Origin: Desulfuromonas sp. AOP6
Lineage (GTDB): Bacteria; Desulfobacterota; Desulfuromonadia; Desulfuromonadales; SZUA-540
Direction of reading: 5' to 3'
Length of the DNA: 64,000 bases
Assembly (NCBI RefSeq): GCF_009731355.2
Contig: NZ_AP022810.1
Span: forward strand, 496,001-560,000
Part shown: in pieces, positions 18,083 through 54,198 of the stretch
How positions within the stretch are numbered: position 1 is the first letter of the stretch
Layout: each line of letters starts with the position of its first letter
The notes under the pieces: generated by a model
Database searches by the model: none
Seen by the model: only the letters and a program-made list of their open reading frames with translations
Told to the model about the DNA's origin: nothing
Position numbers and translations under genes: made by a program

Positions 18083-18146
18083 GGGATCAATAGCCTTTCC
18101 GGCTCTTCGCCAAAGAGAAATATCCTGCGGCCTCGTCCAGCCTTTG

Positions 18147-37834: not shown

Positions 37835-38333
37835 CATTAAGAACGAAGTCGATGAATTTTGGCCCGCTCTATTCCTTTCCGCTGAGCCGGATCCCTCATC
37901 GCGTCGGCCAAACAGGCCGTTTTACCTGCTAAACCGATTCGCGTTCGGGGTCCGCTTCTTTACGGGGGTTTGTACGCCCCTGGCGGAGGGATGGACGGCG
38001 TCCGGCGTCAGGCCGCATCACATCGACTTCGTTTTCTGTTAATGACTCCGGGATGTCGACCTCGTCCTGAGTTTCCGCAAACGTTAAAAGCCTTTCCCTG
38101 AAAGAGGCTTCAGGCGTCCCGCTCAAGGGCGGGCTTGCTCACCACCTTTTTAACCGGGAAAGTAATTTCTCCTGGTGTTGAGGATAAATCAAAGTCCAGT
38201 ATCGAACATCCCAGAGTTTCAAAGATCAATGTTGCGTTTGAATTTAGTCTAGCAGGATATTTCCCGGGGTAAAGAGCCTGGATGAATTTTTTTTTATCCG
38301 CGATCGTTGCCCTTTTTCAGCAGGGAAGGAAGA
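37835..38333. other. 500-base stretch without a recognisable gene
   Basis: No frame here has a start codon with a ribosome-binding site. A 65-codon minus-strand frame (37929-38126) would need a TTG start without support. Another minus frame is open for 68 codons (38113-38316) with plausible protein-like composition (PGKYPARLNSNATLIFETLG) but no ATG or GTG in its first 57 codons. Small hairpins stand at 37905-37919 (CGGCC/GGCCG then TTTT), 38095-38112 (CCTGAA/TTCAGG) and 38119-38134. It is more AT-rich than its surroundings in places. It may hold a decayed gene or small RNA; I cannot decide. Confidence 0.4.
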
Positions 38334-52228: not shown

Positions 52229-53212
52229 TCAGGGCGCCTGCAGGGGGGGCTCGACCAGAGCGGCGATCTGCTCGCGCAGCTGGAGGATGTGCTCGCCCCA
52301 GTAGCGGGGGGTGTTGAACCAGGAAAAATGGCGGGGAAAGGTGGGGTCGTCCCAGCGGCGGGCCAGCCAGGCGGTGAAGTGCAGGATGCGCAGGCTGCGC
52401 AAAGCCTCGATCAGGCGCAGCTCGGCCGGGTGAAAATCGTAGAACTCCTGATAGCCGTCGAGGATCTCCGCCAGCTGCACCTGCTGACGGGAACGGTCAC
52501 CTGAGAGCATCATCCAGATATCCTGCACGGCCGGGGCCATGCGGGCGTCGTCCAGATCGACCAGATGAGGAGCGTCGTTGCGCCAGAGAATATTGCCGGC
52601 ATGACAGTCGCCATGCACGCGGATGGCGCGGGCCGTCACCGTCGCCGTCACGTCGTCGACGCCCTGCAGCAGATCCGTCGTGAGGGCGTCGTAGTTGGCC
52701 TTATACTCGGGCGGGATGAAGTGCTCGCTGATGAGGGCGACGCTGTCGTGGCCGAAGCTCTGGCCGTCGAGATGAGGCCGGTGAACAAAGGGGCGGATGG
52801 CGCCGATGCGGTGCAGGCGACCGAGCAGGCGCCCCATGATGAGCAGGTTGTCCAGATCGTCGAACTCGGGAGCGTGTCCCCCCTGGCGTGCATAGAGGGC
52901 GAAGCGGAAGCCACCGTAGTGAAAGAGGCTCTCCCCCGCCTCGTTGCACAGGGGGGCGACGACGGGCAGCTCGTGCTCCCGCAGCTCGAAGCAGAACTGG
53001 TGCTCTTCGCCAATCTGGGCATCGGTCCAGCGTTCGGGGCGGTAGAACTTGGCGATGAGCGGCTGGCCTTCCTCGATGCCCACCTGGTAGACGCGGTTCT
53101 CGTAGCTGTTCAGGGCCAGGGTGCGGCAGTCGCAGACGTAGCCCTGGCTTTCGATGGCGTCCATGATGAAGCTGGGGGTCAGGCTCTGGAAGGGGGGCTG
53201 GTTCTCGGTCAT
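52229..53212 (-). CDS. srkA: Stress response kinase A
   Basis: SrkA (YihE, RdoA) is a Ser/Thr protein kinase of the choline kinase fold that counters stress-induced cell death. The 327-residue protein shows the catalytic loop IRVHGDCHAGNILW and the metal motif VDLDDARMAPAVQDIWMMLS. The N-terminal NSYENRVYQVGIEEG and LIAKFYRPERWT (ATP-binding Lys) also fit. In enterobacteria it neighbours dsbA, which is not seen here. It is divergent from queF. Confidence 0.93.
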   Translation of the reverse strand: MTENQPPFQSLTPSFIMDAIESQGYVCDCRTLALNSYENRVYQVGIEEGQPLIAKFYRPERWTDAQIGEEHQFCFELREHELPVVAPLCNEAGESLFHYGGFRFALYARQGGHAPEFDDLDNLLIMGRLLGRLHRIGAIRPFVHRPHLDGQSFGHDSVALISEHFIPPEYKANYDALTTDLLQGVDDVTATVTARAIRVHGDCHAGNILWRNDAPHLVDLDDARMAPAVQDIWMMLSGDRSRQQVQLAEILDGYQEFYDFHPAELRLIEALRSLRILHFTAWLARRWDDPTFPRHFSWFNTPRYWGEHILQLREQIAALVEPPLQAP

Positions 53213-53331
53213 CGTCTCGCTATCCTTTTGTTCGGCTTTTTCGGGAAGTGGCGGCAGTATAAGGCAATTGTCCTTTTTGTGCCCGAAAACTTTTGACGGA
53301 TCGCCAAGCCAGCGTTATTGTGGCGGTATCC

Positions 53332-53360
53332 TTGACATCACCCCCATGCTGACGGACAAT
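53332..53360 (+). promoter_or_regulatory. Sigma70 promoter abutting the queF start
   Basis: TTGACA (53332-53337), exactly 17 bases, then GACAAT (53355-53360). Transcription would start near 53366-53368, at the queF ATG itself (53368), so the mRNA seems leaderless. Confidence 0.65.
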
Positions 53361-53367
53361 TAATCCC

Positions 53368-54198
53368 ATGACTGATTTTGACGCTTCCCTGCCTCTGGGC
53401 AGGACCACCGAGTACAAATCCGAATACGATGCCGGCCTGCTCTGTGCCGTGCCGCGCAGCCTCAAGCGCCTGGAGCTAGGACTGGAGCGGGCGCTTCCCT
53501 TTCAGGGGGTGGACATCTGGAACGCCTTCGAGCTCTCCTGGCTGCAGCCCGGCGGCAAGCCGGTGGTGGCCATGGGGGAGTTCCGCTTCCCCTGCCATTC
53601 GCCAAACATCGTCGAATCCAAGTCCTTCAAGCTCTACCTCAACTCCTTCAACCAGACCCGCTTTGCCAGCTTCGCCGAGGTGGAGCAGGTGCTGGCCGAG
53701 GATCTCGGCCGCGTGGCCGGGGCGCCGGTGCAGGTGCGCCTCATCGGCAGCGAGCGCTTCGGCGAGGAGCGCCTCTTCGCCCTGCCGGGACGCTGTATCG
53801 ATGGGATCGATATCGCGGTCAGCCAGTACCAGCTGGAGGCCGAGCTGCTGACCGGGGCGGCCGACGCGGCGGATGTCGTCGAGGAAGAGCTGCACAGCCA
53901 TCTGCTCAAAAGCAACTGCCTCGTCACCTGGCAGCCCGACTGGGCCAGCGTGCTCATCCGCTATCGTGGTGGTCGTATCGATCCCGCCGCTCTGCTGCGC
54001 TACCTCATCTCCTTCCGCCAGCACAACGAATTCCACGAGCAGTGCGTCGAGCGCATCTTCGCCGACCTCATGCGTTTCTGCCGGCCGGAGCGGCTTACCG
54101 TCTACGCGCGCTACACCCGTCGCGGCGGCCTCGACATCAATCCCTTCCGCAGCAATTTCGAGAACACGGTGGAGAACCTGCGGCTGGCCCGTCAGTAG
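53368..54198 (+). CDS. queF: 7-cyano-7-deazaguanine (preQ0) reductase QueF
   Basis: QueF reduces preQ0 to preQ1 with NADPH in queuosine synthesis. This is the long, two-domain form (276 residues). The motif ESKSFKLYLNSFNQTRF marks the NADPH site, and the substrate-thioester Cys lies in the second domain (HLLKSNCLVTWQPDW). Residues FHEQCVERIFADL and RYTRRGGLDINPFRS follow. No ribosome-binding site precedes the ATG, and the promoter abuts it. The SDR and ppnP genes follow on the same strand. Confidence 0.95.
   Translation: MTDFDASLPLGRTTEYKSEYDAGLLCAVPRSLKRLELGLERALPFQGVDIWNAFELSWLQPGGKPVVAMGEFRFPCHSPNIVESKSFKLYLNSFNQTRFASFAEVEQVLAEDLGRVAGAPVQVRLIGSERFGEERLFALPGRCIDGIDIAVSQYQLEAELLTGAADAADVVEEELHSHLLKSNCLVTWQPDWASVLIRYRGGRIDPAALLRYLISFRQHNEFHEQCVERIFADLMRFCRPERLTVYARYTRRGGLDINPFRSNFENTVENLRLARQ

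Follow-up and report, generated by a model that had tools for sequence, protein, structure and literature searches.

The queF gene of Desulfuromonas sp. AOP6 is probably transcribed as a leaderless mRNA, from a sigma-70 type promoter that directly adjoins the start codon, and this layout appears to be conserved in other members of the order; the probability of this reading is put at roughly 0.8. The same reading had been advanced in a preliminary description of the window, the whole stretch of 64,000 nucleotides that was analysed, and as a prediction from sequence it has since gained the support of a conserved abutting promoter, a footprint between two species and negative controls. The features concerned are collected in Table 1.

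Table 1. Features at the queF locus (coordinates are those of the window)
Feature	Coordinates	Strand	Basis
queF, NADPH-dependent 7-cyano-7-deazaguanine reductase, 276 aa, predicted leaderless	53368..54198	+	ORF and profile match
-35 element TTGACA of the queF promoter	53332..53337	+	direct reading, consensus scan
-10 element GACAAT, spacer 17	53355..53360	+	direct reading, consensus scan, orthologues
Discriminator TAATCCC, pyrimidine-ended, just before predicted +1	53361..53367	+	direct reading
Predicted transcription start, A of the queF ATG	53368..53368	+	inferred from the -10 position
Weaker promoter-like site, TTGACG-N17-TATTGT (TTGACG 53293-53298, TATTGT 53316-53321)	53293..53321	+	scan, 9/12
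Divergent neighbour, serine/threonine protein kinase (PRK11768), AAAGGA before its ATG	52229..53212	-	profile match, sequence read

The product of the gene passes the QueF profile TIGR03138 with 402.7 bits (cut-off, 293.45) and is of the long type. Its frame is closed upstream by an in-frame TGA at 53350-53352, and there is no other in-frame ATG, GTG or TTG from this TGA to 12 codons downstream, so that the start of queF is fixed at 53368, with ATG 53368-53370 as the start codon. QueF type varies within the order and the class, with many proteins of the long form; those of four genomes (G003, G017, G023 and G043) and of the class families f22, f23 and f25 have a match confined to about residues 181-261, which is what the short form should give. 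The divergent neighbour, for which the usual name is SrkA/YihE, was found at just 2 of 80 queF loci of the order, both within the host genus, in a count in which some loci had merely a few hundred bases of upstream DNA.

All the bases on which the preliminary description relied, namely TTGACA, 17 bases, GACAAT and the ATG, are present at 53332-53370. This promoter matches the consensus at 10 of 12 positions, in a scan that returned 2 sites in 2.5 kb against a mean of 0.3 in shuffles. The abutting test scored a promoter solely where 5-9 bases separate the -10 box from the start codon, with the -35 element allowed at 32-40 bases before the ATG. When the 60 bases upstream were dinucleotide-shuffled 500 times, no shuffle attained the score of this site at the adjoining position (p = 0.002, the lowest value that 500 shuffles can give). 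Both the promoter score matrix and the Shine-Dalgarno (SD) string are approximate, and the scores are valid only for comparison between sets. As a rule, transcription begins 7-8 bases past the -10 box, which would place the +1 of queF at C53367 or A53368; A53368, a purine after a pyrimidine, is the likelier of the two. The accompanying claim that queF has no ribosome-binding site is borne out as well, as no four-base SD core lies at -20 to -5, and the sole SD trace is a GGA at 53354-53356, 11 bases before the ATG and overlapping the -10 box. Some 20 bases into the message a hairpin of 6 pairs is predicted, which is of no obvious help to initiation and counts against a leaderless start.

From this arrangement we infer that RNA polymerase with the main sigma factor would start at A53368 (or C53367). 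Given the gap of 7 bases between the -10 box and the start codon, the 5' end of the mRNA would be the AUG itself or one base earlier, and this 5'-terminal AUG would be recognised by initiator tRNA on the ribosome, SD pairing not being used. Selection would keep the abutting arrangement in part of the order, and queF may have switched between leaderless and leadered forms among related lineages.

The weaker promoter-like site upstream, which the preliminary description did not mention, would yield a leader of about 40 bases. Its standing was judged from a comparison of the window's genome with the other queF-bearing species of the genus (G001), the QueF proteins of which are 97% identical. The block from -37 to -1, which holds the queF promoter, is identical at 36 of 37 positions, against 31 of 39 in the block from -76 to -38, which holds the upstream site (Fisher p 0.029), and against 116 of 144 fourfold coding sites (binomial p 0.003). 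The block from -120 to -77 is identical at all 44 positions and is probably the promoter of the kinase. Two promoters would leave just such a pattern, with conserved blocks on both sides of a changed stretch, and the upstream site sits in the changed stretch, where intergenic conservation is lowest; in the second species (locus L002) it reads TCGACG/TATTAT, the -35 element being worse and the -10 element better than in the window. It may be that queF has two start sites, a leaderless one and a leadered one at 53293-53321, used according to conditions, a reading that overlaps with the preferred one and is in keeping with the presence of both sites in the window and, in changed form, in L002. 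Yet the upstream site is no better conserved than fourfold sites, and the dual arrangement is given only a small chance.

The layout was then followed in the upstream regions of 80 queF loci of the host's order, representing 31 genera, with the window's locus as L001. Left out of this set were three loci in which the gene start is absent (L036, L164 and L165), ten duplicates, including L152, and a short-type QueF (L030) that fell below the E-value used; a locus without a genus label (L035) was counted as its own genus, and two fragments (L162 and L163) were kept in the abutting test and not in the QueF tree. At loci offering more than one candidate ATG, the one with the highest score was used, a choice that slightly favours the abutting reading. 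A score of at least 7 adjoining the ATG was obtained at 24 of the 80 loci. In three of these (L009, L111 and L116, all of one genus) the hit falls within a preceding gene whose end is 4 bases from queF, which shows that false hits occur, and they were set aside as operon cases. The remaining 21 loci with a sigma-70-like abutting promoter (21/80) belong to 11 of the 31 genera and to four families, and 9 of the 31 genera own an abutting locus with p <= 0.01. The other 59 of the 80 loci were not counted as abutting, which speaks against the leaderless reading.

The abutting loci share several traits. In all 21, the distance from TTGA to the ATG is 35, 36 or 37 bases, a regularity partly built in by the test, which allows 32-40; a pyrimidine occupies -1 in 21/21, against 35/59 of the other loci; and the consensus T at the first -10 base occurs in none of the 21, the base being always G or C. 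An SD core is found at 1/21 abutting loci against 39/59 others, a contrast that the test likewise produces in part, because the -10 box of an abutting promoter sits where an SD would be. Besides the window, GACAAT lies exactly 7 bases before the ATG in L002, L003, L034 (Geothermobacter hydrogeniphilus HR-1), L012 and L038, and in the last four it is kept amid spacer and upstream sequence unlike the window's. At L006, L114 and L129, no TTGA/xAxxxT pattern occurs in the 7-base register, and the -10 box that was scored is 9 bases off. When the best promoter was sought with its -10 box anywhere within 3-69 bases before the ATG, 49 loci scored at least 7, and the commonest distance between -10 box and ATG among them was 7 bases (13 loci).

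These data also bear on the possibility that the upstream site is the main promoter of queF, in which case the mRNA would have a leader of some 40 bases and its start codon would be recognised either with no proper SD or through the distant GGA at 53354-53356. The site scores 9/12 and is as far from the ATG as is usual for leadered genes, queF genes without an SD core are common outside the order (63/69), and at L006, L113 and L114 a site with its -10 box 35-50 bases up outscores the abutting one. At the other 18 of 21 abutting loci, however, among them L001 and L002, no site with its -10 box 3-69 bases before the ATG outscores the abutting one, and in the genus the upstream stretch is less conserved than the block below it (31/39 vs 36/37), with a -35 element that is worse in L002, though the -10 element is better there. 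Such an arrangement is accordingly improbable.

The preferred, leaderless reading further draws on the persistence of the layout in lineages whose QueF is 65-78% identical to the window's and whose upstream neighbours differ; given that the kinase adjoins queF at just two loci, the promoter has been retained without a shared neighbour. In the QueF protein tree, 20 of the abutting rows could be placed; they are spread over several lineages, and about eight state changes are needed. Either an old leaderless state was lost several times or it was gained several times, and the tree favours neither.

Ten loci of the order (L005, L010, L014, L021, L022, L028 and L157-L160) have a promoter similar to that of the window's queF, placed further upstream, composed of TTGAC(A/T), a spacer of 17-18 bases and then GAGAAT, CAGAAT, GAAACT or GACACT. 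An SD core was flagged at the used start in 6 of the 10; the flag in L014 is a GGAG within the -10 box, and another GGAG precedes the next ATG. As a similar promoter occurs at both kinds of locus, it would serve both layouts, and what differs is its distance to the start codon together with, in several of the leadered genes, the presence of an SD. This resemblance suggests a switch between the two forms.

Two other genes, queC and tgt, were used as controls, each from the window's genome and relatives, with the best 30 matches among 58 genomes of the order and the same score, and an abutting promoter was found in 0/30 for queC and 0/30 for tgt. One locus was dropped from each set (L210 and L235, near contig ends), and any start near the first position of the profile was accepted, which differs slightly from the choice made for queF. 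In the corresponding set of relatives, with the operon case removed, queF has an abutting promoter at 9 of 29 loci (9/29 vs 0/60, Fisher p 1.6e-5, kinship ignored). A leaderless habit of queuosine genes at large was rejected on these results for queC and tgt. The tgt profile (TIGR00430) gave two or more matches in 57 of the 58 genomes searched; in the window's genome (G000) these are at C1:1500664 and C1:2079578, both above the cut-off.

Outside the order, 71 queF loci were collected, of which two (L106 and L057) have no nearby ATG, and only 1 of the remaining 69 has an abutting promoter. This locus (L070), from Chromobacterium alkanivorans, combines a poor -35 element (TCGGCG) with a TATAAT at a distance of exactly 7 bases from a candidate ATG, and is possibly a separate leaderless case. 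An SD core is present in just 6 of these 69 genes, so that a missing SD alone says little and the position of the promoter is the evidence. That the abutting site matches by accident or is an inherited relic, queF being read from elsewhere, is very improbable, since chance abutting hits do exist (L009, L111 and L116) but the layout is kept at 65-78% QueF identity beside different neighbours, the controls are near zero for queC, tgt and queF outside the order, and the divergent neighbour leaves no same-strand upstream gene for read-through.

Within the window's own genome, leaderless starts of this kind seem to be rare. A sample of 464 kb, the window included, comprised 373 called genes, and a strong abutting promoter (score of at least 8.5) was found at 2 of them, queF included. 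The preliminary description had held leaderless mRNAs to be uncommon in this group, and for this genome as sampled this agrees with the 2/373, under start calls that favour an SD. At a threshold of 7, there were 6 abutting hits against 4.3 and 6.4 expected from two other distance ranges, which is no clear excess. At least four SD bases precede 288 of the 373 called starts, a number raised by the SD-favouring choice of starts; the gene finder was crude, guessed starts and rewarded an SD, and it may hide leaderless genes. A second strong leaderless candidate is a plus-strand gene in L183 (G000:C1:1460001-1480000, start base 18102) for a 460-aa predicted protein beginning MNAFLRTCLLLIPLFF..., in which TTGACA, 17 bases and TAATCT end 7 bases before the ATG and the SD match is just 3 bases. 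On the minus strand of L183, another gene has an ATG 26 codons from its called start, with an abutting promoter score of 11.9, the -10 box 8 bases off and no SD; were this the true start, the protein would have 393 aa and the gene would be the third strong abutting case in the sample. A pattern search of the whole genome gave 8 matches, against 1 for the reversed pattern, and those at gene starts were queF, a transposase-like gene (L170) and perhaps a phosphorylase-like gene (L173), the latter two named by eye. L170 (G000:C1:2611024-2611060, minus strand) has TTGACA, 16 bases and TAACAT, 6 bases before the ATG.

The preliminary description had also pointed out that queF often has a preQ1 riboswitch, for which there is no space here. 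The general statement fits the Bacilli, in which riboswitch-controlled queF genes are known, for example in Bacillus methanolicus (PMC4342826), and as an argument for a leaderless message it is weak, since a search for preQ1-I alone, with stricter filters, in 136 genomes of the order gave no match at or above the cut-off. The absence of the riboswitch from this queF is thus expected and has no bearing on the leaderless claim. That search also gave one sub-threshold match in G008 (29.3 bits; cut-off, 39). In the window itself, no preQ1 family matched at the curated Rfam thresholds, the only match being a 6S RNA gene (RF00013, 58.1 bits) at 38041-38220 on the minus strand. None was found at 53150-53500 at a loose threshold either, where weak matches to mir-598 and RsmV, far below their cut-offs, were taken as chance. 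At 20 queF loci, Rfam likewise returned no preQ1 riboswitch; the other matches there were a c-di-GMP riboswitch (on the other strand, L010), tRNAs and SRP RNA. The window's queF and that of the Bacilli share the enzymatic step, from preQ0 to preQ1, and differ in that the former has no preQ1 riboswitch, is predicted to have no leader and encodes a QueF of the long type (TIGR03138).

Leaderless mRNAs are a well-known kind, of which lambda cI is an example, and the conserved leaderless queF would be a new and probably true one. Like the known cases, it lacks an SD, starts with AUG and has its -10 box some 7 bases from the ATG; it differs in being one conserved gene in a genome in which SD starts look dominant, rather than part of a genome-wide habit. 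Leaderless bacterial mRNAs were predicted genome-wide by Zheng et al. 2011 (PMC3160421), and, in that source, leaderless genes were predicted in 8 of 33 delta-proteobacterial genomes, with a mean of 15.8% of genes in those 8. The literature searched was of limited coverage, and in it, including the accessible parts of PMC3160421, PMC11625349, PMC4342826 and PMC3460626, no report of a leaderless queF was found; nor, within the same limits, was a mapped queF 5' end found in print.

Leaderless starts are usually portrayed either as characteristic of whole genomes in certain phyla or as isolated curiosities. The balance of initiation factors and 70S ribosomes affects leaderless messages differently from SD-led ones, and it may be speculated, as a rather unlikely suggestion, that leaderless queF is an old, selected control state by which the supply of preQ1, and hence of tRNA queuosine, is coupled to the status of the translation-initiation apparatus. 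If the leaderless reading is true, these queF genes cannot be under riboswitch control from a leader, and, in an order with seemingly dominant SD starts, a single housekeeping gene would be leaderless across families beside leadered relatives, which raises the question of what selects either mode. With leaderless and leadered members read from similar promoters, the queF family would offer a natural series for studying how the mode of initiation changes.
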